Part shown: positions 1 through 12,742 of the stretch, piece by piece
How the letters are laid out: the number at the start of each line of letters is the position of its first letter
Numbering within the stretch: the stretch's first letter is position 1
Assembly (NCBI GenBank): GCA_902806235.1
Contig: CADCVW010000054.1
Location: 1 to 62,273 of the forward strand
Origin: an uncultured Sphingomonadaceae bacterium
Lineage (GTDB): Bacteria > Pseudomonadota > Alphaproteobacteria > Sphingomonadales > Sphingomonadaceae
DNA: 62,273 bases
Reading direction: 5' to 3'
Notes under the pieces: model-generated
The model's input: only the letters and a program-made list of their open reading frames with translations
Database searches by the model: none
What the model was told of the DNA's origin: nothing
Made by a program: the position numbers and the translations under genes

Positions 1-1
1 A

Positions 2-754
2 GGACGAGAAGTCGCACGCAGCCTGCGCTGGGCGGCGTGGACACTGGGCTTCGGCCTGGGCGGCTTCTTCGACGGCATCATGCTCCACCAGATCCTGCAA
101 TGGCACCACCTGCTGAGCCTGGTGGACGGCGTCGACCGGATCGCCGAGCAGATCTTCTGGGACGGCGCCTTCCACGTGCTGATGTACGCGATCACCGCCG
201 CGGGCCTGTGGCTGCTGTGGCGCGCCCGCGCCGCGCTGCCCGCGGTCGGCGGGAGGCGCTTTCTGGCCGACGTCTTGCTCGGCTTCGCGGCGTGGCAGTT
301 CGTCGATGTTGGCTTCTTCCATTGGGTACTCGGCATCCACCGCATCCGCGTGGACGTGCCCGACCCGCTCCTCTGGGATCTCGGCTGGACGCTGGTGGTC
401 GGCGTCCCGCCGCTGCTCGCCGCCTTGGTCCTGCGCCGCGGCAACGGCGGGCCGGGCGCGGGGCGGCGGGCGGCGCTGGGCGTCGCGGTCGCGGCGCTGA
501 TCGGCGGGACCTGGGCAGCGCTGCCACCGCCGAACGCGCGCACGGCGGTGGTGATGTTCGCCCCCGGCATCGCCGACGGCCAGGCCTGGGACGCGGTACG
601 CGCGGCGGACGGCCGGGTGCTGTGGCGCGCAAGAGGTGTGTGGGCGGTGCGCTGGGAGGGCGACGTGCGGCCCGCGCCGCTGCGCGCGCGCGGGGCGTGG
701 CTCGTCAGCAGTTCGAGCGCGGTGGCCGGCTGCCTCGCCTGGGCGGCCGCTTGA
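2..754 (+). CDS. DUF2243 family integral membrane protein (5' end outside window)
   Basis: The reading frame is open from the window edge and ends at a TGA at 752-754. The conserved family core GGFFDGIMLHQILQWHH is visible; its first residues lie upstream of the first internal ATG at 80, so the true start is left of the window. About four hydrophobic segments follow (one near AFHVLMYAITAAGLWLL, another near LLWDLGWTLVVGVPPLLAAL), as expected for DUF2243, a family of bacterial inner-membrane proteins with no established function. After the membrane part there is a roughly 75-residue tail beginning near PPPNARTAVVMFAPG that looks soluble and may face the periplasm; I do not recognise it. Family call is strong, function unknown. 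Confidence 0.8.
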   Translation, partial: GREVARSLRWAAWTLGFGLGGFFDGIMLHQILQWHHLLSLVDGVDRIAEQIFWDGAFHVLMYAITAAGLWLLWRARAALPAVGGRRFLADVLLGFAAWQFVDVGFFHWVLGIHRIRVDVPDPLLWDLGWTLVVGVPPLLAALVLRRGNGGPGAGRRAALGVAVAALIGGTWAALPPPNARTAVVMFAPGIADGQAWDAVRAADGRVLWRARGVWAVRWEGDVRPAPLRARGAWLVSSSSAVAGCLAWAAA

Positions 755-1312
755 CCTATGACCCATAGTCAGGCGCTCGCGGGCAATTCTCCGCTTTCCG
801 ACTTCAGACATCCGTTCAGCTTCTGGTTTCGGCACGGACTGGTCGGAAGCGATCCGCCCGCTTTGAAATTGGGAGATCGGAAAAGCGGATTGCTAGGATA
901 ACATCGACGTAGTTCCGTTTCGACCGGCACCGCCTCCAAAAGCTTTGAACCATCGCCCGCGCCGTTCTAAATACGGTACGGCGAGCGCGAGAACTCCGCC
1001 GCCCACGCGCGCTAGCCCGTCTGGCCCTGCGGCAACCGGGCGATGAACAAAAGAGGTAATCCGCTCGACTGCTGGGCTCGCACCGGGCGCAGCGGTGGCG
1101 GGCTGCTACGAGTTCTTCGTGCGCGGTCTGGACGAGGCTGGACGTCAATCGTTCCCAGCAATAGCTGGCACGCGGCGGGGCGCGGCGCCGCACACGGGCG
1201 ATAGCCAGCACCCTTCGAGCACAGCGAGTTTTCACCTGCATGTTTAACAGCCCGGGCAGCGACAATTTCCTCGTCCGGCGAGGTCTGCTCCGTAACGCTT
1301 CTTGGCACAGCG
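755..1312. other. 558-bp gap without a convincing gene
   Basis: No open frame here has a recognisable protein family or a convincing ribosome binding site; the longer frames on the minus strand are arginine/serine-rich translations of G+C-rich DNA. The stretch 775-910 contains small inverted repeats (for example ATCCGC near 860 and GCGGAT near 893) and a CTTTCCGACTTCAGACAT segment that weakly recalls the dispersed element at 7242. The region marks the passage from the DUF2243 gene into the less G+C-rich glycan block, so decayed DNA is possible. Confidence 0.5.
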
Positions 1313-2941
1313 ATGGCATCCGCTTGGCCGGCGATGCCATCGCAAACTGACGCGCGCTGCCGCGCGCTCAACTCGGGACCGGAAGCATGGTGGCCGCTCC
1401 CGCTAGCGGCCGTAGCTTGCTTCGCGGCGATGGCGCTGCAGCGGAAATTCGACCTGAACCTGATGGACGAAGGCTTTCTGTGGTACGGTGCCCAGCGCGT
1501 GCTAGTAGGCGAACTGCCGCTTCGGGACTTTCAGGCCTACGATCCCGGCCGCTACTTCTGGTCGGCAGCTTGGATGGCGCTGCTGGCCGACGACGGGATA
1601 GTCACCCTTCGCTTGAGTAATGCGGCGCTTGGGGCAATCACCGTCTTCTTTGCGGCTTGGACAGTCGGTGCGGGTCCCGTGAGGCCGCGCCCGGGCGCGT
1701 TGCTCGCTGCTGGGACAATTTTCGTGTGGTGGATGGCGCCGGCGTTCAAGGCCGCCGATAGCTTCGCGGCGGTGGTCCTGCTTTGGGGGCTGACGCGCTT
1801 AGCGGAGCGTCCAACGCTCCCGCGGTACTTCGCTGCCGGCCTTTGCTGGGGCTTGGCTGCGACCATCGGCATCAACCACGCTCTCTACGGGAGCATCGCC
1901 GGGCTTCTCGCCTTTTTGTACCTGCGGGGAGCGCCAAACGCCTTGCACGCCTTGCTGGCCGGCGGCGCGGGCGCGGTAGTGGGCTACTCGCCCGTACTGG
2001 CACTGCACCTTTTCGCCCGGGGGTTCACCGCCGCCTTCATCGACAGCATCCGCCTACTATTCGAGTATGGCACCACCAACTTCGCCCTGCCGCTGCCAAG
2101 CCTGTTCGCACTTCGCGAGCTACCGGAGAAGGGTTATCTGATGCCAATGACGGAAGCGGCGTCGGCTCTCGTTCTCCTCCTAGCGCCCATTTTCTGGGCA
2201 AGCGCGGCGTGGCACCTGCGTCGTCCCAAAAGCTGTGCGAGCTTGCCACCTGCCGTGCTCGCGGGCTTCGTGCTAAGCCTGCCCTACGCTCATTACGCAT
2301 GGTCCCGCGCCGACGCGGGTCACTTGGCGGTCAGCATTCTACCGGTGCTGGGCGCTACCTTGGCTTGGGTGACGCGCGCGCCGCGCGTGCAACGGTGGCC
2401 TCTTCTGGCCGCAGCTTTCGGCCTGAGCCTGCTCGTCACGCTGCATATGCACCCGGGCTACGCTCGCCTACGGGCCGTCTACCTAACGGAGACCGTCCAA
2501 GTAGGCAGGGATCAATTACTCGTGCCACCCTACACGGCGGCCGCGGTGCAGGCAGTAAGGCAGACCGCAGCTGCTGCAGGGCCCGGGTCGTTTTTCGCCG
2601 GTCCATACCTGCCAGGAGCTTACGCGCTTGCCAGCCGCCGCTCGCCCACGTGGGAGAACTATATGATTTTCCCGGCATCGGCACGTCGACAGACGATCGA
2701 AATTGAACGACTCCGCTCCGCCGGCGTCCTACACGCGCTGTTGTGGCGCCAGCGCTGGGACAACAGGTCGGACCTCGGCCTCGCTCAGACGCATCCGCTA
2801 GTTTTCGCTTTTCTGCGGAGCTGCCTGCCGAACACTCGAATGTTATCCACCGAGTTCGTTCTCCTGTCGTCCTCCGACGTCCAATCTTGCCGCCGACGCC
2901 CGGGGTGGTCGCCCGATCGGTCAATTATCACTGCGAAATGA
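1313..2941 (+). CDS. GT-C-like integral membrane glycosyltransferase
   Basis: A 542-residue protein with many hydrophobic segments. An acidic pair D52-E53 (motif LNLMDEGFLWYG) lies just after the first membrane segment, the position of the catalytic acidic residue in GT-C enzymes such as ArnT and PMT, which move a sugar from a polyprenyl-phosphate carrier onto a periplasmic acceptor. A tail of about 130 residues follows the last membrane segment. The start at 1313 is the first ATG; ATG at 1331 or 1334-region codons are also possible, and no strong ribosome binding site decides. The gene converges on the aminotransferase gene with a 21-bp overlap of the 3' ends. Next to a polyprenyl-phosphate sugar transferase and an SMR-like protein, the likely job is the final periplasmic transfer. 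Fold call moderate, substrate unknown. Confidence 0.65.
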   Translation: MASAWPAMPSQTDARCRALNSGPEAWWPLPLAAVACFAAMALQRKFDLNLMDEGFLWYGAQRVLVGELPLRDFQAYDPGRYFWSAAWMALLADDGIVTLRLSNAALGAITVFFAAWTVGAGPVRPRPGALLAAGTIFVWWMAPAFKAADSFAAVVLLWGLTRLAERPTLPRYFAAGLCWGLAATIGINHALYGSIAGLLAFLYLRGAPNALHALLAGGAGAVVGYSPVLALHLFARGFTAAFIDSIRLLFEYGTTNFALPLPSLFALRELPEKGYLMPMTEAASALVLLLAPIFWASAAWHLRRPKSCASLPPAVLAGFVLSLPYAHYAWSRADAGHLAVSILPVLGATLAWVTRAPRVQRWPLLAAAFGLSLLVTLHMHPGYARLRAVYLTETVQVGRDQLLVPPYTAAAVQAVRQTAAAAGPGSFFAGPYLPGAYALASRRSPTWENYMIFPASARRQTIEIERLRSAGVLHALLWRQRWDNRSDLGLAQTHPLVFAFLRSCLPNTRMLSTEFVLLSSSDVQSCRRRPGWSPDRSIITAK

Positions 2942-4174
2942 TGTTCGAACCTGACCTGCGGCGGAACGGCGGTCCCCTTCCAGCGCCGCAGCAAGGAGCT
3001 CGCAGATGCGGTCCTGCTGTTCGTCCAACAAGCCTGGAAACAATGGTAGCCGTAGAATGCGGCTCGCACAGCTCTCCGTGTGAGCCAGGGTGCCGTGCGT
3101 CCGGCTGTAGCGCATCCCTCCTGCCGAACCATGCAGCGGGATGTAGTGGAACGCTGCGCTTACGCCGGCGTCGTTCAGACATCGCAGCAACGCATCGCGA
3201 GCGGCGCGGTCCCCCGCCAGGATGTAGAAGACGTGCCCGTTGTGGCCGCACTCCTCCGGCACGGTGGGAAGTTGGATCCGCCCGCCATCCGCCAGCGGCT
3301 GCAGGAGCTTGCGGTATCGCTGCCACAGCGACAGGCGTCGAGCGGTGATCTGTCGCGCTTTGATCAGCTGCGCGTGCAGCAGGGCAGCCGCCATCTCGTG
3401 CATAGCGTAGGCGGAGCCAAGGCCCGTCCACGAGTACTCAGCAACGCGACCTTCTTGAAACGCAGCCTTGTTGGTGCCCTTGTCGCGGCCGACCAGCACC
3501 TTGTCCAGGAGGTCGGGATCGCGGACCAGCAGGCAGCCGCCTTCCCCGGCGACGACGTTCTTGGTTTCATGGAAGCTGATCGCACCCATGGTGCCGAGCG
3601 AGCCCAGCGGCCTTCCCCGATAGGTAGCACCGAACGCTTGCGCGGCGTCCTCGACCACCGCCAGCCCGCGCCGCGCCGCTATTTCGAGCAGCGCATCCAT
3701 TTCGCACGCGACGCCACCATAGTGCACCGGTACGATAGCACGTGTCCGCTCGGTTACCGCATCCTCGACCAGCCGTTCGTCGATATTCAGCGTGTCGGGA
3801 CGGAGATCCACGAATACCGGCACCGCCCCACGCAGCGCGACCGCGTTCGCGGTTGAGACGAAGGTGAACGACGGCATAATTACCTCGTCGCCAGGGCGGA
3901 GGTCTAAAGAGAGCATGGCGAGCTCGAGTGCCGCGGAGCACGAATGCGTCAGAAGGGCGTGAGCCGGCGCGTAATCAGCGGTCAGCTGGGCCTCGCACAA
4001 GCGAACGAAGCGCTTGGCCGAGTAGCCCCCAGTCGCGCGCAGCGCTTCCGCCATGGCCGCCAGCTCTTCTGCGCCGACGTCCGGTCTGTTAAGTGGGATT
4101 GGTACCGCCTCCGGCACTGCTTCAGCACGCTGCTGGGAGGCGAAACGCTCCGGGTTCTGCTTCAATCGTGGCAT
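2921..4174 (-). CDS. DegT/DnrJ/EryC1 (WecE-like) sugar aminotransferase
   Basis: A PLP-dependent aminotransferase of 417 residues that should convert a nucleotide-linked 4-keto-6-deoxyhexose to the 4-amino sugar. Visible are the family start PLNRPDVG, the PLP phosphate site THSCSAALELA, the cofactor-contacting VEDAAQAFGA, and the Schiff-base lysine K205 in SFHETKN. The segment GRDKGTNKAAFQEGRV and the following SWTGLGSAY match the WecE/RffA subgroup (dTDP-4-amino-4,6-dideoxygalactose synthesis) better than ArnB. There is an N-terminal extension of about 25 residues relative to WecE (376 residues); the GTG at 4117 would remove most of it but has no better ribosome binding site. It lies 97 bp downstream of the SMR-like gene, so may be in the same transcript. 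No sugar nucleotidyltransferase or dehydratase is nearby. Confidence 0.88.
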   Translation of the reverse strand: MPRLKQNPERFASQQRAEAVPEAVPIPLNRPDVGAEELAAMAEALRATGGYSAKRFVRLCEAQLTADYAPAHALLTHSCSAALELAMLSLDLRPGDEVIMPSFTFVSTANAVALRGAVPVFVDLRPDTLNIDERLVEDAVTERTRAIVPVHYGGVACEMDALLEIAARRGLAVVEDAAQAFGATYRGRPLGSLGTMGAISFHETKNVVAGEGGCLLVRDPDLLDKVLVGRDKGTNKAAFQEGRVAEYSWTGLGSAYAMHEMAAALLHAQLIKARQITARRLSLWQRYRKLLQPLADGGRIQLPTVPEECGHNGHVFYILAGDRAARDALLRCLNDAGVSAAFHYIPLHGSAGGMRYSRTHGTLAHTESCASRILRLPLFPGLLDEQQDRICELLAAALEGDRRSAAGQVRTSFRSDN

Positions 4175-4271
4175 GTGGATGTTACGCTTTCACAGGCCTG
4201 CCGGACGCCGATCGACGCAACGGCCCCTTGGCCAACGCGGCCACAACGCGCGACCAGCCGCCGGTGCCACC

Positions 4272-4655
4272 TCAGTGCGGCCCGCCGGTGGGGGCAACGA
4301 GCGCGCAGCCGAAGGCAATCAAGATAAGTCCGAGCCAAGCTTTAGGTGTTACCGTCTCGTTGAGGAACGTCGCCGCGAGCACCGCGACCACGACCACGGA
4401 CGCGGATGCCATCGCGTAGGCATAGGATAATTGTAGGTGACGCAGCGCGCCGAGCCAAGCGCCGAAGGAGACGGCGAGTAAGAGGCCGACGAGCAGCAGC
4501 CGTCCGAGGATGCCGGCCCGGAGGAGATAATCGGCACTGAACTGGGGGACAGCTTCGGGCAAGGACGCAACAACCGCTTTGAGCAGGGCGTGTCCTCCCG
4601 CCCCTGCGACCACAGACAGCGCGAGCAGCAGCTGGCCCAGCCGCAGGCCGCTCAC
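4272..4655 (-). CDS. small four-helix EamA/SMR-like membrane protein (possible ArnE/F-type flippase)
   Basis: A 127-residue, almost wholly hydrophobic protein with about four membrane segments and the sequence LSYAYAMASASVVVVAVLA followed by FLNETVTPKAWLGLILIAFG, typical of the second half of EamA/SMR transporters and of the ArnE and ArnF subunits that flip undecaprenyl-phosphate-aminoarabinose. I chose the GTG at 4655 because it overlaps the stop of the methyltransferase gene as GTGA, a usual coupling arrangement; the longer frame upstream only repeats methyltransferase DNA. Context (polyprenyl-phosphate glycosyltransferase two genes upstream, GT-C transferase nearby) supports a role in moving the lipid-linked sugar to the periplasmic face. 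A small-molecule exporter cannot be excluded. Confidence 0.65.
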   Translation of the reverse strand: MSGLRLGQLLLALSVVAGAGGHALLKAVVASLPEAVPQFSADYLLRAGILGRLLLVGLLLAVSFGAWLGALRHLQLSYAYAMASASVVVVAVLAATFLNETVTPKAWLGLILIAFGCALVAPTGGPH

Positions 4656-5293
4656 GACTTCGCGCCGCCTGTCCGCAGCACAATTGTGAAATCCCAGTGT
4701 CCGTAATCGTGGAGCAACGCCACGTCCGACGTCAGCTCCCGCTTGCACCAAGCAAACATTGCGCCGGGATCGACGTAGAACAACGACGCATCCCGGCGAT
4801 CCTCGTCAGAGTAGGTGGATAGCATATTGAAGGCGACCGCGCACCGGCTCTTGGCCACCATCGCCCGTACGATGACGCGGACGTGCTCCTCCCAGACCTC
4901 GTCGGCGTGGTCATTTCGCGCGTTAAAGATCCCGGACGCGAAGCAATAATCGGCGGGCGCGACCTCCGCTATGTCCCGGATCGGCCGGAACGCCGCGTCG
5001 GGGTCCCGGTGATGGGCGGCCGCCGCCTCGACCATGCCGGGCAGCACGTCATAACCCGCGTAGCGCGCGCGGGAGAACCCCGCCGCGCGCAGGAACGGCA
5101 GCAGGTCGCCGAGCCCGCAGCCAATGTCGGCGACGTCGAAGGCCGCCCCGGCCGCGTGGTCGATGGCGCGCGCGAGTTGCCCGAACCGGGCCAGCTGAGC
5201 CCGCTCGTCTCGCCACCCGACCTGGCGCGCGCGCTCCCGCTCGCTGGCGCGCTCCGCATAATAGGCCGAATATTCCATGCTCAAGTCCAGCAC
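4652..5293 (-). CDS. SAM-dependent methyltransferase
   Basis: A class I methyltransferase of about 213 residues. The SAM-binding motif I is VADIGCGLGDLLPFL, followed by the acidic end of strand 2 in YAGYDVLPGMVE. Start chosen at the GTG at 5293, which shares its G with the TAG stop of the glycosyltransferase gene and has AAGGAG five bases upstream; the next ATG at 5278 (MEYSAYYAERA) has no such site. The middle sequence CFASGIFNARNDHADEVW resembles methyltransferases found in O-antigen and glycolipid loci. Sandwiched between a polyprenyl-phosphate sugar transferase and an SMR-like protein with overlapping ends, it probably O- or N-methylates the sugar being built. The acceptor is not deducible. 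Confidence 0.75.
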   Translation of the reverse strand: MLDLSMEYSAYYAERASERERARQVGWRDERAQLARFGQLARAIDHAAGAAFDVADIGCGLGDLLPFLRAAGFSRARYAGYDVLPGMVEAAAAHHRDPDAAFRPIRDIAEVAPADYCFASGIFNARNDHADEVWEEHVRVIVRAMVAKSRCAVAFNMLSTYSDEDRRDASLFYVDPGAMFAWCKRELTSDVALLHDYGHWDFTIVLRTGGAKS

Positions 5294-6225
5294 TATGACT
5301 CCTTCGGCCCGTACACCCGCCGGACGATGGCGCGAGGGCGCGCCTTGACCTCCCGCAGGATCGCCCCAGCGTAAAGCGCGAGTACGCCCAAGGCGGTCAG
5401 CAGCAGCCCGCCGACGAGCCAGATCGACCATAGGACGAGGCCGCTTAGGCCGACATCGGCGCCGTTTGTCCACGCCGAGAGGAGCCAAGCCGCGCCCGCA
5501 GCGAGCCCGAGGAGGAGCAGCGCGCATCCCGCGGCCGGAATAAGCAGCAGCGGGACGGTGCTCAGCGCGGTCAGGCCCGTCAATGCGACACCAAGCCGCT
5601 TGCCGAACGTATAGCTGGTCGCGCCCTTGCTGCCCTTGGCGGCCGACACTGCCACCTGCTCGAAGCCGGCCAGCGCGAAGACGCTCCACAAGTCTAAGCC
5701 GCGCTCGCCGTGAAGCAGCACGGCGTCAACGTAGCGGCGGGTCATCAAACGGGCGGTCAGGCTGTCCGCCGGGTAGGGGACGTCGGCCAAGCGGCGGAAC
5801 AGGCCGTACCAAAGGTTGCCCGTCGCCCGCTCCCACCAGCCGCCCTTGCGCCGCTCCTGCACTCCGTAGGCGGCGTCCGCGCCGGGATGGTCGCGCAGCG
5901 CCCGCCGCAGGGCGTCGAGCAACTCCGGCGGCTCCTCCAGGTCGCTGTCGATCAGGAACACGAGGTCGCCGGACGCCTGGGCCAAGCCCGTCAGCAGCGC
6001 GGGATGGTGGCCGAAGTTGCGCGCGAGGTCGACGACGACGATTCGGGAGTCCTCCCGTCGGAGGTCGAGGACGCGCTCGAGCGAGCGGTCCGGCGAGCCG
6101 TCGTTGACGTACACGAACTCGGTCGGCCCCGCCACCGTCCGCGACGCCGCCAGCGAAGCGCGGCGGTGGAACTCCGTCACGGTCGTCTCCGAGCGGTACA
6201 GGGTAGTGACGACTGAGAGCTTCAC
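5293..6225 (-). CDS. polyprenyl-phosphate glycosyltransferase, GT2 (DPM1/ArnC-like)
   Basis: A 310-residue inner-membrane enzyme predicted to load a sugar onto undecaprenyl phosphate on the cytoplasmic face. The GT2 nucleotide-binding start MKLSVVTTLYRSETTV, the DGSPDRS loop, the aspartate pair in FLIDSDLEEPPELL and the QERRKGG segment match the DPM1-like group that includes ArnC and GtrB. Two strong membrane segments lie in the C-terminal third (around residues 230-255 and 265-290), as usual for that group. The start codon is GTG at 6225. It sits 6 bp after the WbqC gene stop and shares one base with the methyltransferase start, so the genes form one operon. Function class is firm; the sugar donor is unknown. 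Confidence 0.88.
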   Translation of the reverse strand: MKLSVVTTLYRSETTVTEFHRRASLAASRTVAGPTEFVYVNDGSPDRSLERVLDLRREDSRIVVVDLARNFGHHPALLTGLAQASGDLVFLIDSDLEEPPELLDALRRALRDHPGADAAYGVQERRKGGWWERATGNLWYGLFRRLADVPYPADSLTARLMTRRYVDAVLLHGERGLDLWSVFALAGFEQVAVSAAKGSKGATSYTFGKRLGVALTGLTALSTVPLLLIPAAGCALLLLGLAAGAAWLLSAWTNGADVGLSGLVLWSIWLVGGLLLTALGVLALYAGAILREVKARPRAIVRRVYGPKES

Positions 6226-6231
6226 AACGGG

Positions 6232-7047
6232 CTAGGACCTAGCCAAGGCCGCCGGATTTTCGAGCGCCCGCTTCTCCGCTCCTCCTTGGCACGGTCGGAG
6301 CTCCGGCCGGCGGTCGACGAATTTCATATGGGCGGGAGCGTTCGGACCTGTGTTGAACAGGAGATCGACGATCGAGACTTGGTGAACGAACGGGCCCCAG
6401 AGCTGCGGATACTCGCCATAGCGCGTATAGTCGAACCACTCGACCTCGATACCCGCGGCACCCATGATAGACTCGTCGAGGTAGGATTTTGCCGCTGGCC
6501 CCGACACGTAGACCGACGCGCCGGCCTGCAGACAGATGTCACGCAGGCGCAACTGACGATGCTCAGGCGCACGGTAGTCCAAGTGCGTCCGCAAGGTGGT
6601 CCCGATCCCGAGGTAACGGCAAATGCGCCGGATCAGGGCGAAGTTGAGTTCCGACAGACGATCCATGCCGCGACCCAGTTCGTGCTCTAAGAGGGGCATA
6701 ACTGCGGAAAAGAACGGCGCTCGCGCGTAGGCCATTCGCAGCGTCTTCAGGTGCTGCTCGGCCCATTGTTGCGAGGCGATGCGCACCTCGCTGATCTTAG
6801 TGGTCCGTTGCGGCGCGGCAAGCACGGGGACCGTCAGCCAGCGAAGCCCTTGCGGCGTTTTGACGAGGTTTCGATTCCGCCACGAGCGCCGGGTGTATTG
6901 GAAATCGTCATACAGGACGAACTCGTCCACGGCCGCGATCAGGTCGAAATACCCCTTCCAGGGCAAATAGTTCGACTGAATAATCGCGACCCGCTTACCC
7001 GCCATGCGGCACGGGCCTGAACAGGGATCGGTGATCATGTCAATCAT
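6232..7047 (-). CDS. WbqC family protein
   Basis: The opening KRVAIIQSNYLPWKGYFDLI and the following VDEFVLYDDFQYTRRSWRNRN are the hallmark of WbqC-like proteins, which recur in O-antigen and amino-sugar operons and are thought to act on the sugar (possibly as acyl- or aminoacyl-transferases); their reaction is not firmly established. Two starts are possible: ATG at 7047, with AGAAGG four bases upstream, and ATG at 7005 directly before the conserved region. I give the longer one on the ribosome binding site, but the first 14 residues are not conserved-looking. It is the first gene of the operon running to the SMR-like gene; its promoter should lie in 7048-7541. Confidence 0.85.
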   Translation of the reverse strand: MIDMITDPCSGPCRMAGKRVAIIQSNYLPWKGYFDLIAAVDEFVLYDDFQYTRRSWRNRNLVKTPQGLRWLTVPVLAAPQRTTKISEVRIASQQWAEQHLKTLRMAYARAPFFSAVMPLLEHELGRGMDRLSELNFALIRRICRYLGIGTTLRTHLDYRAPEHRQLRLRDICLQAGASVYVSGPAAKSYLDESIMGAAGIEVEWFDYTRYGEYPQLWGPFVHQVSIVDLLFNTGPNAPAHMKFVDRRPELRPCQGGAEKRALENPAALARS

Positions 7048-7541
7048 CCAGCCTTCTCACCCGAAACTCCGCGCGAGCGTAGAAAGCGACGCGATCGCCG
7101 ACAGCGACGATGGCGACCCGATTTCCTCGGCTTGCCCGCCCCATCACCTGAACAGTGAGCGCATCTGGTGGGCGTTAACCACCGCTTCGCTGGTCAGCAG
7201 ACAGCAAGCAGAGACCGCTTCATTCCCTTACGGTTCTGTGGAGACCCACTTCCGGACATTCAGGGACGCTTCGCTGCTCCCTGGAGCCGGACGTTGGTTC
7301 ATGTGTGCCCGATGGCTCGAAGCGGCCGCGGGCGGAACGTCCGGTTCCGAGTATCTAGGTTGAGAAGGCGGACGAGCCTAGCCGCAGCAGGAGCTGGGCA
7401 TCTGGCGGTCTCGACTAGCGAGCACCATGGTGGATACCGTAATGCTCGCGCTTCTTGGATACGCGTCGGTGTCCCAAGGTACTTCCGCCGTAGCGATGCG
7501 CCGGCTTAAAGCAGAAGCCTCGGACCAGGCGGGAGATGGCG
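7048..7541. other. divergent intergenic region carrying a dispersed repeat
   Basis: About 490 bp between the divergently oriented WbqC and monooxygenase genes. No credible coding region was found. It must hold both promoters, but I cannot assign boxes. It contains the roughly 105-bp repeat at 7242-7346 described separately. The rest shows no recognisable structure. Confidence 0.55.
7242..7346. repeat. dispersed ~105-bp intergenic repeat, copy 1
   Basis: Aligns without gaps to 15113-15217 with about 72 identical positions of 105 by hand count. Shared blocks are AGACCCA, CGGACA, CGCTTCGC, GACG followed by GTT, GATGGCT, GAA with GGCCG, and TCCG. The part TTCAGGGA near 7259 and TCCCTGGA near 7277 can pair around the conserved CGCTTCGC, giving a hairpin. 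I recall similar GACCCA/CGGACATT motifs from sphingomonad intergenic DNA but could not check this. It may be an old mobile element or a structured RNA. Confidence 0.6.
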
Positions 7542-7871
7542 ATGGTCTGTAGGAAGTGGCGTGGTTGGACCACGGTCACGAACGCCTCCGTCTACGAGGA
7601 GCTTCTGCGCTCGACGGTGCTCCCCGGCATCGAGGCACGCGCGATCACTGGTTTTCGGAGCATCGACATGATGCGTCGCGAAATCGGCGGCGAGATCGAG
7701 TTCACCACCATTATGTGGTTTGACGACCTTGCCGCGGTGAAGGCGTTCGTGGGCGACGATCACGAGATCGCCTACGTTCCGGCGGCGGCGCGCGCGGTCC
7801 TGTCGCGCTTCGACGAGCGCGCCGTGTATAACGACGTGTTCAATTGCCGCGAGCAGGCCGGACGATCATGA
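7542..7871 (+). CDS. antibiotic biosynthesis monooxygenase (ABM) fold protein
   Basis: A protein of about 109 residues with the ABM dimeric alpha/beta-barrel pattern: an N-terminal tryptophan strand, YEELLRSTVLPGI, then ITGFRSIDMMRREIGGEIEF, a WFDDLAAVKAF segment and a C-terminal LSRFDERAVYNDVF. Such proteins are cofactor-free monooxygenases or stress-linked small proteins; this length and ending match the group usually annotated 'antibiotic biosynthesis monooxygenase'. ATG at 7542 is preferred because GGGAG lies six bases upstream, whereas the ATG at 7536 abuts it directly. Its stop overlaps the nitrilase start as ATGA, so the two proteins are translationally coupled and probably work in one pathway. 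Substrate unknown. Confidence 0.7.
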   Translation: MVCRKWRGWTTVTNASVYEELLRSTVLPGIEARAITGFRSIDMMRREIGGEIEFTTIMWFDDLAAVKAFVGDDHEIAYVPAAARAVLSRFDERAVYNDVFNCREQAGRS

Positions 7872-8824
7872 GAAATAGGAAGGTTGTCGCGGCCGTGGTT
7901 CAGGCGGAGGTCGCCGCCGATGTCGCCGCCTGTCTCGATCTTACGCGTGCCAAAGCGCTGGAAGCCGCAGCCGGCGGAGCCGAGCTCGTTGTGTTTCCCG
8001 AGACCTGGGTTCCGGGCTACCCGGCTTGGCTCGACGTGTGCCGCGACGCCGCTTTGTGGGACCATGGGCCGGTCAAGGCGGTGTTCGCCCGGATCGCCCA
8101 GAACAGCGTCGCCATCCCCGGGCCCGCGCTCGACCATCTCGTGGCGACGGCACGGGAAGCGTCGGCGACGCTGGTGATCGGCCTCAGCGAACGCATCGAC
8201 CGCGGTGCCGGCCGGGGCACGCTGTACAATTCGCTGATCACGCTTTCGCCTGAGGGCAAGCTGCTCAACCACCACCGCAAGCTGATGCCGACCTACACCG
8301 AGCGGCTGATCTGGGGCGCAGGCGACGTGGAAGGGCTCCGCGCGGTCGACACGGCGGTCGGTCGGGTCAGCGCGCTGGTGTGCTGGGAACATTGGATGCC
8401 GCTCGCCCGGCAGGCGCTGCACGAGTCGGGGGAGGACATCCACGTCGCGGTGTGGCCGACGGTGCACAACATGCATCAGGTCGCCAGCCGGCAATATGCG
8501 TTCGAAGGGCGCTGCTTCGTACTCGCCTCCGGAGCCCTGATGCGCGCCTCCGCGCTGCCGCCCGAGCTCGAGGTGCATTCGCAGCGCGTGACGAGTCCCG
8601 AGCATTGGGTGCTGCGCGGCGGCAGCGCGATCATCGGGCCGGACGGCGAGTACTTGGTCGAGCCGGTGTTCGACGAGCCGCACATCCTCATGGCCGAACT
8701 CGACCTCGCCCGCTTGCACGAGGAAAGCATGACGCTGGACGTGAGCGGGCATTACCACCGCCCGGAGCTGTTCGATTTCGGCGTAAAGCGCTCCGGACGC
8801 CGCTTGGCGGGCGAGGGTGAATGA
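7868..8824 (+). CDS. nitrilase (C-N hydrolase family)
   Basis: A 318-residue nitrilase-superfamily enzyme hydrolysing a nitrile to a carboxylic acid and ammonia. The catalytic triad is complete: E45 in VVFPETWVPGYP, K138 in HHRKLMPTYTERLIWG and the nucleophile C172 in LVCWEHWMPLAR. The PTYTERLIWGAGD and CWEHWMPLARQAL signatures match true nitrilases (branch 1) rather than amidases or carbamoylases, and the length fits. Start ATG at 7868 overlaps the preceding stop (ATGA). The downstream serine hydrolase begins at or just after the nitrilase stop. The natural nitrile cannot be read from sequence. Confidence 0.92.
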   Translation: MRNRKVVAAVVQAEVAADVAACLDLTRAKALEAAAGGAELVVFPETWVPGYPAWLDVCRDAALWDHGPVKAVFARIAQNSVAIPGPALDHLVATAREASATLVIGLSERIDRGAGRGTLYNSLITLSPEGKLLNHHRKLMPTYTERLIWGAGDVEGLRAVDTAVGRVSALVCWEHWMPLARQALHESGEDIHVAVWPTVHNMHQVASRQYAFEGRCFVLASGALMRASALPPELEVHSQRVTSPEHWVLRGGSAIIGPDGEYLVEPVFDEPHILMAELDLARLHEESMTLDVSGHYHRPELFDFGVKRSGRRLAGEGE

Positions 8825-8855
8825 GCCCATGCCGGGCTTCTTGTGTAGGGAAGGG

Positions 8856-10247
8856 ATGCAGGTGCGCCGATCGATGTTTACCCTCGCCGCTGCCGCCACG
8901 GCCGTGCTGCCGGCTGTTGCCGTCGCACAGGAAGAAAGGCCGGCCTACGTCCGCGCGCTCGCCGCAGGGTACAAGGCGGGTTTCCTGTGCAGTAACCTGT
9001 TCAACGGGGGCCTAAGCGAAGCGCAGACCGAGGCGGACGATCTCCGGGGCACGTACGAGAACCTGAGCCCGTTGCTCGCCGGGTTGCCCGCGCAGGTGGA
9101 CCGGGAACGGCGCATGGTGTCCGTCACCTACGATCCGGTCATGCCGCCGCGGGTAGCAGTGTGGCGTCCGCTGCTCGGCTGCGCCCAGCTGCCGATCGGC
9201 GCGACGGCGGAAGCAGTCACCACGCTGCCACGGATCAACGCGAAGGCGCCCGATCTGGACGCGAGTGCCTGGCCGATGGGCGATCGCGGGGCCATTGGTC
9301 GCGCTTCCGGCGACCCGCGGGCGCTGGCGGGGACGATCGCTGGAGCGTTCGACCGGCGCAGCTATGGCCAAGGCAGCGAGACCACGGCGGTCCTGGTCGT
9401 CCAGAATGGCCGAATCGTCGCCGAGCGGTACCGGCCCGACCTCGACATGCACTCGTCGCAGCGCACCTGGTCGGTGGGCAAAAGCTTGGCGGCCAGCGTG
9501 ATCGGCGCGGCGGTGCAGCAGCGGCTGATTGACGTGGATGCGCCGGCACCGGTGCCCGAGTGGAAAGCCGTGGGCGACCCGCGCGGGCGCATCACCACCG
9601 ACCAGCTGCTGCGGATGGCGAGCGGTCTCAATAGCGACCACGCGGGGAATCGGACGGACGCGCTCTACTTCGGCGGTGTCGGCGTCGCGCATCAGGCGGC
9701 TGGCTGGCCGCTGGTCGCGCCGCCAGGGACGGCCTTCCGCTACGCCAACAACGACACGGTGCTGACGATCCGCGGTTTGCAGCACGCGCTGGGCGACGGC
9801 GAGCGGTCCTTGCGCTTCCCGTTCGAGGCCTTGCTGTGGAAGGTCGGCATGACCCGCACGGTGCCCGAGACGGACTGGCGCGGCCACTTCGTCATGTCGA
9901 GCCAAGTGTGGACCACGGCCCGCGACCTTGCCCGGCTGGGCCTCCTCCACCTGAACGACGGCCTGTGGAACGGCGAACGAGTGCTGCCGGCAGGCTGGCG
10001 CGATTACGTCAGGCGGCACGGACCCGCGCAGCCGGCGAGCGGCTACGGCTACGGGGCGAGCTGGTGGACGTTTCAGCAGGGCTCGGGCCTGCCGACGGAC
10101 GCCATCGTGGCGCGCGGCAACCGCGGCCAGTACCTAGTGGTCGTGCCGTCTCGCCAGCTGGTGGTGGTGCGGCGCGGGTTCGACGGCAACGGCATGGCGT
10201 TCGATCTCGACGCCTTCACGCGCGACCTGCTGGCCGCACTCGGCTGA
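8856..10247 (+). CDS. periplasmic serine hydrolase, beta-lactamase class C/esterase-like
   Basis: A 463-residue exported hydrolase. MQVRRSMFTLAAAATAVLPA followed by VAVAQ is a typical cleavable signal peptide. The SxxK motif is S206-V-G-K209 (TWSVGKSL) and the second motif is Y296-A-N298; a late GNRGQYL takes the position of the KTG/HxG-like motif. This is the class C beta-lactamase-like/6-aminohexanoate-dimer hydrolase fold, more often an esterase or amide hydrolase than an antibiotic beta-lactamase. Start chosen at ATG 8856 because the signal peptide begins there; an upstream ATG at 8817 would overlap the nitrilase stop and add 13 residues. It ends 12 bp from the convergent PLP-enzyme gene. 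Confidence 0.82.
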   Translation: MQVRRSMFTLAAAATAVLPAVAVAQEERPAYVRALAAGYKAGFLCSNLFNGGLSEAQTEADDLRGTYENLSPLLAGLPAQVDRERRMVSVTYDPVMPPRVAVWRPLLGCAQLPIGATAEAVTTLPRINAKAPDLDASAWPMGDRGAIGRASGDPRALAGTIAGAFDRRSYGQGSETTAVLVVQNGRIVAERYRPDLDMHSSQRTWSVGKSLAASVIGAAVQQRLIDVDAPAPVPEWKAVGDPRGRITTDQLLRMASGLNSDHAGNRTDALYFGGVGVAHQAAGWPLVAPPGTAFRYANNDTVLTIRGLQHALGDGERSLRFPFEALLWKVGMTRTVPETDWRGHFVMSSQVWTTARDLARLGLLHLNDGLWNGERVLPAGWRDYVRRHGPAQPASGYGYGASWWTFQQGSGLPTDAIVARGNRGQYLVVVPSRQLVVVRRGFDGNGMAFDLDAFTRDLLAALG

Positions 10248-10259
10248 GGGCCGACTCCG

Positions 10260-11489
10260 CTAGAGGTCGTTCAAAGCGGTGAGCAACGCGTCGACCTCGT
10301 CAGCCGTCGTGTAATGGCAGAAGCCGACTCGGACGAGGCCGCCGGACGCCTTCAGCCCGAGCCTGGCGACCGCTTCCTGCGCGTAGAAGTTGCCGGACCA
10401 GGCGAAGATGCTCCGGTCCGCGAGGAACGTTGCGACCTCTTTCGGCGCATGGCCTTCGACGGTGAAGGCGAAGGTCGGCACGCGGTCGGTCCCGTCCGGC
10501 GGACCGTAGAGCCGGATCCGCGGCAAGGCTTCGAGCCCCGACAGGTACTGCCGCGTGAGCTCGCGTTCATGCGCGGCGACCGCCGTCATCCCAGCCGAGA
10601 GGCGCTTGCGGCGCTCGCCCTCTTCTCCGCCGAGCGAAGCCAGATGTTCGACTGCGCCAAGCGTTCCGGCCATGCCTTCGAACGAAGGAGTGCCCGTCTC
10701 GAAGCGGACCGCCGGGGGCTGCGTCGGCGACGGCCGCAGCTTGTACGCCTCGACCTCCTCCAGGAGATCGGTCCGTGCCCATAGGACGCCCTGGTGCGGC
10801 CCGAAGAACTTGTACGGCGAACAGGCGAGCAGGTCGCAACCGAGCGCCCGCACGTCGACGGGGAAGTGCGGCACCGACTGAACGGCATCAACGAAGATGA
10901 GGGCGTCGCTGCACGCGCGTACGATGCGGACGACGGCGGCGACATCGTTGATCGTACCGAGCGCGTTGCTCGCGCCGCCGACGGCGACGAGGCGGGTGCG
11001 TTCGCTCAGCAGGCCGGGCAGCCTGTCCAGCGACAACCGCCCGTCGTCAGGGTCGAAGTCGAGCCAGCGGACTGTCAGGCCGAGGTCGCGGGCGAGCAGC
11101 AGCCACGGCGCCACGTTGGCGTCGTGGTCGAGGCGCGTAACCACGATTTCATCGCCCGCGCTCCAGCGACGACCCAGCGCGCGCGACGTCGACAGCGTCA
11201 GCGACGTCATGTTCGGCCCGAAGGCGATCTCGCCCGCTTCGCCGCCCAAGAGGTCGGCCATCGCCTCGTGCGCCGCTCGGCTCAGCGCGTCCGTCGCAAC
11301 CGACGTCGCGAAAGCGCCGCCGCTGTTGGCCGTGCCGCCTTCCATGTGCGCGACCATGCGGCGTATCGCTCGCCCGCAGACCTGCGTTCCGCCAGGCGCG
11401 TCGAGGTAGATGCGCGGGCGGTCGCCGTCGCGGACGTGGAGCGCCGGGAAGTCCGCCCGGATGGTCTCGACGTTGAGGCTCATCGTCAC
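10260..11489 (-). CDS. cysteine desulfurase-like class V PLP aminotransferase
   Basis: A 409-residue enzyme of the aminotransferase class V group annotated 'cysteine desulfurase-like'. The N-terminal IRADFPAL, the substrate-loop YLDAPGGTQV, the aspartate in LIFVDAVQSVPHFPVD and the PLP lysine in CSPYKFFGPHQG are visible. The region TANSGGAFATS is typical of this subgroup, which is distinct from IscS and SufS; its physiological reaction is generally unproven. The start GTG at 11489 overlaps the amidohydrolase stop (GTGA) and has GAGG upstream; ATG at 11483 is an alternative. Coupling to the amidohydrolase suggests a shared catabolic or salvage role. Confidence 0.85.
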   Translation of the reverse strand: MTMSLNVETIRADFPALHVRDGDRPRIYLDAPGGTQVCGRAIRRMVAHMEGGTANSGGAFATSVATDALSRAAHEAMADLLGGEAGEIAFGPNMTSLTLSTSRALGRRWSAGDEIVVTRLDHDANVAPWLLLARDLGLTVRWLDFDPDDGRLSLDRLPGLLSERTRLVAVGGASNALGTINDVAAVVRIVRACSDALIFVDAVQSVPHFPVDVRALGCDLLACSPYKFFGPHQGVLWARTDLLEEVEAYKLRPSPTQPPAVRFETGTPSFEGMAGTLGAVEHLASLGGEEGERRKRLSAGMTAVAAHERELTRQYLSGLEALPRIRLYGPPDGTDRVPTFAFTVEGHAPKEVATFLADRSIFAWSGNFYAQEAVARLGLKASGGLVRVGFCHYTTADEVDALLTALNDL

Positions 11490-12742
11490 GGTCGCCTCAC
11501 CACCACCCCGTTCTTCATCACCAGCCTGACCGCGCGCACCGCCTCGATCCTACGGCTCGGATCGCCGTCCACCGCCACCAGATCGGCGAGCATCCCAGGC
11601 TTGATGGCGCCCAACCGGTCGCCGAGCTTGAAAATGCGCGCGTTGCCCGACGTGGCGGCGACGAGCACGTGCGCGGGGGGCATGCCTGCGGCCGTCATCA
11701 GCTCCATCTCGCGCGCGTTGCTGCCGTGCGCGAACACGCCCGAATCCCCGCCTACGCACATCGCTACCCCCGCCCCGCGGGCCGCCGCAAAGCTGCGCCG
11801 CGCAGCGAGCACCGCCGGCGGCGGCGGGTCGCTGCCGTTCCAGCCGCGGTAGCGCGAGGTCGCGTCGCTGGCGGCGAGCGTCGGGCAGAAGGCCACGCCT
11901 CGCGCCCGCATCAGCGCGAACACCTCCGAAGTGCCGCCGGTGCCGTGCTCGATCGTGTCCGCGCCCCCGAGCGTCGCGCGGCGCATGCCCTCGGGCGTGC
12001 TGGCGTGAACGGCGACGGTTCGGCCCGCGGAACGCGCCGCTTCTACCGCCGCGCGCAGCTCGTCGAGGCTGAAGGTCGGTCGGCTCTCTTCGCCCGCGTT
12101 CCAGCGGTAGTCGGCGTAGAGTTTGACCACGTCGGCACCGCGTCCGATCTGCCGGCGCACGGCGCGGACCAGCTCGGGACCATCGGCTTCTTCCGCACCC
12201 TGCGGCACAACGACATCCGCCTCGAAACCTTTGGGTCCGTAGCTCCCGGTCGCCACCAGCGCGCGCGTCGCGACCAGCATGCGGGGGCCGGGAATAATCC
12301 CTTGCTCAATCGCCTGCTTCAGCCCGACGTCCGCATAACCGGCGCCTTCGGTGCCCAAATCACGTACCGTGGTGAACCCGGCCATCAGCGTCTCGCGCGC
12401 GGCCACCGTCGCACGGGCGGTGCGCAGCGCGAGCGGTTCGTGCAGCACCTGGTCGTCCCAGCTCGCCTCGTCGTAGGGGTGGAGAAACAGGTGCGAATGA
12501 CCTTCGATGAGGCCCGGAAGCAGCGTGGTGCCCGGAAGATCAACGACCGTCGCGCCAGCAGGCGCCGCTATGCCCGCGCCCGCCGCCGCGATCTTGTCGC
12601 CGCGCACGAGCACCGACCAGCCTTCATGCGGGACCGGATCGATCCCATCGAACACGCGAGCGGGTCGCAGCAGGATGACTGGCTCGGCCGCAGACGCCGG
12701 GGCCGCAAGGAACAGCGTTAGCAGCATCAGCAGGTATCGCAT
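11486..12742 (-). CDS. secreted amidohydrolase (imidazolonepropionase-like family)
   Basis: A 418-residue metal-dependent amidohydrolase with signal peptide MRYLLMLLTLFLAAPASA. The metal-site motif is GLIEGHSHLFLHP; further conserved parts are the carboxylated-lysine region DVVKLYADY, VAVHASTPEGMRRA, DTIEHGTG and the late GGDSGVFAHGSN. The C-terminal LGAIKPGMLADLVAVDGDP closes the small beta domain. Such exported enzymes act on peptides, prolidase-type substrates or other amides. Start at ATG 12742 is supported by GAGGAG upstream and by the signal peptide. It is divergent to the penicillin-acylase gene with only 53 bp between starts, so the promoters must overlap. Confidence 0.88.
   Translation of the reverse strand: MRYLLMLLTLFLAAPASAAEPVILLRPARVFDGIDPVPHEGWSVLVRGDKIAAAGAGIAAPAGATVVDLPGTTLLPGLIEGHSHLFLHPYDEASWDDQVLHEPLALRTARATVAARETLMAGFTTVRDLGTEGAGYADVGLKQAIEQGIIPGPRMLVATRALVATGSYGPKGFEADVVVPQGAEEADGPELVRAVRRQIGRGADVVKLYADYRWNAGEESRPTFSLDELRAAVEAARSAGRTVAVHASTPEGMRRATLGGADTIEHGTGGTSEVFALMRARGVAFCPTLAASDATSRYRGWNGSDPPPPAVLAARRSFAAARGAGVAMCVGGDSGVFAHGSNAREMELMTAAGMPPAHVLVAATSGNARIFKLGDRLGAIKPGMLADLVAVDGDPSRRIEAVRAVRLVMKNGVVVRRP

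Follow-up and report, generated by a model that had tools for sequence, protein, structure and literature searches.

Gene content and layout

Positions 1313-7047 of contig CADCVW010000054.1, from an uncultured Sphingomonadaceae bacterium (GCA_902806235.1), carry a locus with a WbqC protein, a methyltransferase (MT), and the parts of a lipid-carrier sugar modification system resembling the aminoarabinose (Arn) route. The window analyzed here is the whole contig (C54; 62,273 nucleotides), which belongs to a fragmented alphaproteobacterial assembly (112 contigs, 2.72 Mb, 90% complete). According to the listing of open reading frames (ORFs), the interval is filled by six genes:

1313..2941, + strand: predicted GT-C-fold membrane glycosyltransferase, 542 aa (homologues in other cassettes, acidic pair, predicted structure)
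2921..4174, - strand: WecE-type dTDP-4-amino-4,6-dideoxyhexose transaminase, pyridoxal phosphate-dependent (PRK11706, TIGR02379, SFHETKN lysine motif)
4272..4655, - strand: small EamA/ArnF-like membrane protein, 127 aa, flippase candidate (Pfam EamA, 36.7 bits)
4652..5293, - strand: class I S-adenosylmethionine-dependent methyltransferase, 213 aa from GTG 5293, alternative ATG 5278 (Pfam Methyltransf_25, 30.1 bits; also Methyltransf_12)
5293..6225, - strand: GT2 polyprenyl-phosphate glycosyltransferase with two C-terminal membrane helices, ArnC/PgfS-like (Pfam Glycos_transf_2, 67 bits)
6232..7047, - strand: WbqC protein, true start probably, judging from homologues, at an ATG near 7005 (PF08889, 259 bits vs. 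a gathering score of 21.3)

Read along the minus strand, the order is wbqC, GT2, MT, small membrane protein, and aminotransferase (AT). The GT-C gene on the plus strand is convergent to these five genes and overlaps only the tail of the AT gene, by 21 bases, and therefore lies outside their operon. A sequence-only reading of this DNA had proposed Arn-like parts (an aminotransferase, a GT2, a small flippase candidate, and a GT-C transferase) together with a methyltransferase and a WbqC protein, and all six genes are present in these places, with Pfam families assigned to all but the GT-C protein. The coupling by overlapping ends described in the same reading is confirmed: the GT2 stop codon TAG (5295-5293) has one base in common with a GTG start of the MT gene (5293), and the MT stop codon TGA (4654-4652) overlaps the GTG start of the transporter gene (4655) as GTGA. 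The genes wbqC and GT2 are separated by 6 bases.

Amino sugar synthesis

The AT matches the Pfam family DegT_DnrJ_EryC1 with 314 bits and contains the SFHETKN lysine motif. It exceeds the curated cut-offs of the WecE models (PRK11706, 476 vs. 375 bits; NCBIfam TIGR02379, 452.5 vs. 434.85 bits) and stays far below the ArnB equivalog cut-off (PRK11658, 235 vs. 631 bits), in agreement with the earlier suggestion that it is nearer to WecE than to ArnB. The same genome encodes RmlA-like (60%) and RmlB-like (55%) proteins in neighboring genes on contig C13, so that dTDP-4-keto-6-deoxyglucose, the substrate of WecE, can be made; L104, one of the related loci described below, is likewise flanked by rml-like genes. 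The cargo is very probably a 4-amino-6-deoxy sugar and not aminoarabinose, as had been anticipated. No relative of the NeuD/PglD-type acetyltransferases was found in the window or elsewhere in its genome (assembly about 90% complete). The window accordingly represents a minimal form of the cassette, lacking the acetyltransferase that is present in two thirds of its relatives.

Delivery proteins and methyltransferase

The GT2 remains below the NCBIfam equivalog cut-offs for PgfS (NF047588, 129 vs. 500 bits) and ArnC (PRK10714, 102 vs. 529 bits), and GT2s with 41-50% identity occupy the same position in other cassettes. Three additional GT2 paralogues (27-37%) are encoded in the genome of the window on contigs C108, C83, and C42; by eye, the C83 paralogue adjoins a GtrA-like gene and the C42 copy an epimerase-like gene. 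The small transporter is likewise under the equivalog cut-offs for ArnE/ArnF (34.9 vs. 99 bits for ArnF, its best NCBIfam match, and 25.3 vs. 92 bits). Relatives of the MT in other cassettes have 43-44% identity.

The 542-aa membrane protein has no family match in Pfam or NCBIfam and no match in the PDB by sequence. Eight full-length homologues from other cassette copies (31-37% identity, 468-499 residues, E 5e-52 to 7e-86) share with it an invariant acidic pair, D52-E53, in the first outer loop, followed by an invariant DPGRY. A model built from eight sequences (pLDDT 69, pTM 0.73) was matched by Foldseek to OST, AftA, DPY19, and ArnT. In the VIA comparison, a check set beforehand, rows 1-49 were filled exclusively by GT-C enzymes (Z 18.4 to 8.6; row 50, 5.2), including ArnT at Z 14.6 over 407 residues. 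According to the model, the large membrane protein therefore has the GT-C fold that the sequence-only reading had predicted, with an acidic motif in the first outer loop.

Recurrence and modularity of the gene set

A contig scan with the MT alignment yielded 432 MT relatives, and 80 loci from many phyla were read. The counts of accompanying genes are from the 51 loci with full flanks; as these were chosen via the MT, the counts describe the company of the MT and not the whole family. WbqC was found in 50 of the 51 loci, the AT in 48, the GT2 in 39, an acetyltransferase in 34, a GH130-like protein in 32, and an EamA protein in 23. WbqC, AT, and GT2 occur together in 35 loci, 20 of which also contain the EamA transporter. 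The usual gene order is (GT-C)-WbqC-GT2-MT-acetyltransferase-GH-like-EamA-AT, and the order of the window, WbqC-GT2-MT-EamA-AT, is also found in the Bacteroidota loci L047, L055, and L056. In five loci (L070, L075, L087, L104, and L106), a GT-C gene immediately precedes wbqC; in L058, it lies on the opposite strand. Pseudomonas brassicacearum (L113) and P. koreensis (L075) are among the species with a copy. This recurrence in other genomes, the second check set beforehand, is far beyond chance. The cassette is found in Proteobacteria, Bacteroidota, Cyanobacteria, Chloroflexota, and Acidobacteriota, and plasmid records carry the same set under names that include WbqC family protein, acetyltransferase, EamA family transporter, and rffA. 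The numbers of relatives and loci rule out a single-genome oddity, and the idea of a variant peculiar to the genome of the window had to be abandoned.

An MT relative is present in 20 of the 385 genomes of the class, and several of these neighborhoods contain AT, WbqC, and GT2. In none of the 59 genomes related to the host did the GT-C protein have a convincing match or the MT a close one; this speaks against vertical inheritance in the host family and makes horizontal gain of the cassette likely. On the 5' side of the GT-C gene, the window contains only an unrelated membrane ORF before the contig end; past wbqC, the ORFs resemble, by eye, a small monooxygenase, a nitrilase, and a beta-lactamase-like protein. 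A conserved protein of approximately 300 aa, weakly similar to beta-1,2-mannobiose phosphorylase (GH130), adjoins the acetyltransferase in L104 (11277-12212) and in 31 other full-flank loci, and is absent from the window.

Variation among the loci is informative about the roles of the genes. Locus L087 of Nitrosomonas europaea has a formyltransferase (PF00551 and N_formyltrans_C; 10613-11398) in the acetyltransferase slot and, at the expected place of the flippase, a GtrA-family protein (11395-11829) instead of the EamA protein; such functional replacement supports the roles assigned here. The GT2 is missing in 12 of the 51 loci, including Burkholderia copies reduced to WbqC-MT-AT (L093, L095, L100, L107, and L114, with no GT2 match within 10 kb), and WbqC, MT, and AT therefore look like a sugar-making module that is separable from the delivery module. 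Locus L198 (genome G101) encodes AT, WbqC, GT2, acetyltransferase, and the GH-like gene without a matching MT, suggesting that methylation is optional. A different WbqC-centered variant is found on plasmid pDCAR1 of Solidesulfovibrio carbinolicus (L181), where the neighbors of WbqC are an aminotransferase, a radical SAM protein, and two methyltransferases, and the group is bordered by transposases.

Predicted similarity of WbqC to the bacillithiol ligase BshC

The sequence-only reading gave WbqC no role, and both its predicted structure and its gene neighborhood suggest that it acts on the amino sugar before the MT. An alignment of 50 WbqC sequences contains 29 invariant residues, and the AlphaFold model based on it has a pLDDT of 88 and a pTM of 0.83. 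The best VIA match of this model is BshC of Bacillus subtilis (4wbd; Z 14.2, rmsd 3.9, 224 of 271 residues), the cysteine:glucosamine-malate ligase of bacillithiol synthesis, a predicted similarity that is new here. The rows below BshC are mostly adenylylating, ATP-using enzymes of the HUP fold, with TyrRS (8.3), PPAT, and, lower, pantoate-beta-alanine ligase. BshC is described as a putative cysteine ligase acting on GlcN-malate, with a Rossmann core and an unsolved mechanism (PMC4360819), and NmbA N-methylates bacillithiol on the cysteine added by BshC (PMC12719100); the NmbA structure (9RI2) is not among the PDB matches of the MT profile. A possible product class is illustrated by O-antigens, which contain 4-amino-4,6-dideoxyhexoses with N-acetylglycyl or N-acetyl-alanyl groups (PMC3210612).

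By sequence, WbqC has no match in the PDB, and the BshC family PF10079 is not among its Pfam matches. The WbqC and BshC profiles align only over a 12-residue GPxxxxY motif (YxSGPAAxxY vs. YxGGPAExxY), with a second weak collinear stretch. As the sequence profiles fail to confirm homology, the link is taken as one at the level of the fold. In the Pfam text on WbqC, a glycine transferase role has reportedly been proposed. In the control genome of Caulobacter vibrioides, a WbqC protein above the family cut-off was found, and one DNA query against E. coli genomes gave no match at the sensitivity used.

The gene neighborhood adds to this picture. Among 20 WbqC loci from a separate family search, 18 have a DegT-type sugar aminotransferase nearby and three the MT, whereas nearly every MT locus contains WbqC. 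This asymmetry is most simply read as WbqC acting on an amino sugar and the MT on what WbqC produces.

Proposed pathway and alternatives

The locus is best read as an Arn/Gtr-like lipid-carrier cassette with a dTDP-derived 4-amino-6-deoxy cargo that is probably (amino)acylated by WbqC and methylated. In this pathway, RmlA and RmlB, encoded elsewhere in the genome, would provide dTDP-4-keto-6-deoxyglucose, which the WecE-type AT would convert to dTDP-4-amino-4,6-dideoxyhexose. As a BshC-like HUP-fold ligase, WbqC would then acylate this sugar; the group added is most likely an amino acid, for example glycine or alanine. The MT would methylate the product, comparable to the action of NmbA after BshC. 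Once complete, the sugar would be loaded by the GT2 onto polyprenyl phosphate and flipped in this lipid-linked form by the small EamA/ArnF-like protein; in the periplasm, the GT-C enzyme would pass it to an acceptor, which may be lipid A/lipopolysaccharide, a polysaccharide, or a protein. Of this scheme, the protein families, the predicted GT-C and WbqC folds, the recurrent gene set, and the precursor genes are results of the computation; the sequence of reactions, the aminoacyl character of what WbqC makes, the methylation site, the role of the flippase candidate, and the acceptor are inferred. Carrier-based delivery appears highly likely. Ligase activity of WbqC on the amino group, suggested by the predicted structure, is about evenly balanced, and aminoacylation specifically by WbqC falls somewhat short of that. 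Taken as a whole, a cassette for cytoplasm-to-periplasm sugar decoration in which a BshC-like WbqC acylates the amino sugar before the MT acts is slightly favored.

Several observations weigh against this scheme. Foldseek found no significant match for the WbqC model, the WbqC-BshC profile comparison (hhalign) was not significant (P about 0.07-0.09), and a common fold of the two proteins does not show function. The proportion of WbqC loci with an aminotransferase has a high, unmeasured baseline because sugar aminotransferases are common in polysaccharide clusters. The NeuD/PglD-type acetyltransferase of two thirds of the relatives could acylate the 4-amino group instead of WbqC, and as the window lacks this gene, its native product may differ. 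In addition, the MT belongs to a generic family, the window has its GT-C gene on the strand opposite to the other five, and the acceptors named above are candidates only.

With the delivery route unchanged, WbqC could instead be an acyl- or hydroxyacyl-transferase and the MT an enzyme that O-methylates the ring, giving a sugar similar to anthrose or modified viosamine. Anthrose and flagellin viosamine loci do combine an aminotransferase, an N-acyl step, and an O-methyltransferase, and the MT resembles generic O- and N-methyltransferases alike. However, the WbqC model is HUP/BshC-like and not of a known acyl-CoA transferase fold, and most relatives already have a separate acetyltransferase, which makes this alternative rather unlikely. 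The MT might also N-methylate the 4-amino group itself, WbqC then being non-catalytic or serving an unrelated purpose. The amine could be free or methylated, as neither the window nor the Bacteroidota loci L048, L049, L055, and L056 show a separate acetyltransferase match, but the near-constant presence of WbqC beside the MT and its invariant residues suggest that WbqC is required for the MT, and we regard this version as improbable. Least plausible, with a very low probability, is an ordinary sugar-donor module for O-antigen or exopolysaccharide, whose product is used by cytoplasmic glycosyltransferases while the GT2 and GT-C genes are chance neighbors. The loci without a GT2, including the reduced Burkholderia copies, would fit such a module; against it stand the GT2 in the remaining 39 loci, the overlap of the GT2 and MT genes in the window, and the homologous GT-C genes adjoining wbqC in five loci.

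Comparison with known systems

The decoration cassette shares with Arn a 4-aminotransferase, a polyprenyl-phosphate GT2, a small flippase candidate of the SMR/EamA type, and a GT-C transferase, and the N-formylation enzyme of the N. europaea locus parallels formylation by ArnA. It differs in having a WecE-type instead of an ArnB aminotransferase, a single flippase protein, and the additional WbqC and MT, and its GT-C and GT2 proteins fall below or outside the Arn family models. No ArnA or ArnD was seen among the ORFs of positions 1-12000, where not every ORF was family-scanned, and the rest of the genome was not searched. With its proteins under the cut-offs of the ArnB, ArnC, and ArnE/F models, the cassette is not Arn by membership, yet it probably works like Arn. 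The GT2 with two C-terminal helices, the small membrane protein, and the large membrane transferase are also reminiscent of three-component Gtr systems and PgfS-type protein glycosylation, and L087 has a GtrA protein in place of the EamA protein. In contrast to these systems, the cassette has its own amino-sugar biosynthesis, WbqC, and MT.

Anthrose and modified viosamine are 4-amino-4,6-dideoxyhexoses that are N-acylated and methylated, as proposed for the cargo of the cassette, which differs by its WbqC-type enzyme and by lipid-carrier delivery through GT2 and GT-C. The bacillithiol enzymes BshC and NmbA provide the precedent for the predicted fold of WbqC and for the proposed order of ligase and methyltransferase. 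WbqC is half as long as BshC, lacks an equivalent of the coiled-coil dimer domain, shows no family match at the sequence level, and its substrate would be a nucleotide sugar, not GlcN-malate. Synthesis of Fuc4NAc for the enterobacterial common antigen involves the same transaminase family (WecE) and an RmlA/RmlB-derived precursor, but it uses WecD and the Wzx/Wzy route and not transfer from polyprenyl monophosphate by a GT-C enzyme.

Significance

The window contains a compact member of a widespread cassette for which we found no description: a literature search on WbqC and on the gene combination returned no paper naming or describing it, and the annotated records examined give its genes only generic names. 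This points to an uncharacterized surface or glycoprotein sugar built on an Arn-like logic. WbqC proteins are common in O-antigen clusters, and their predicted structural link to BshC allows a specific and testable hypothesis on the synthesis of aminoacylated sugars. Tentatively, WbqC may found a large family of ligases that depend on ATP, are related to BshC in fold, and couple amino acids to nucleotide-activated amino sugars; together with the MT, it would yield N-methyl-aminoacyl sugars that are installed on bacterial surfaces by a widespread, unnamed lipid-carrier cassette. If true, the ligase reading of WbqC would supply the enzyme for the aminoacylated 4-amino-6-deoxy sugars of O-antigens.

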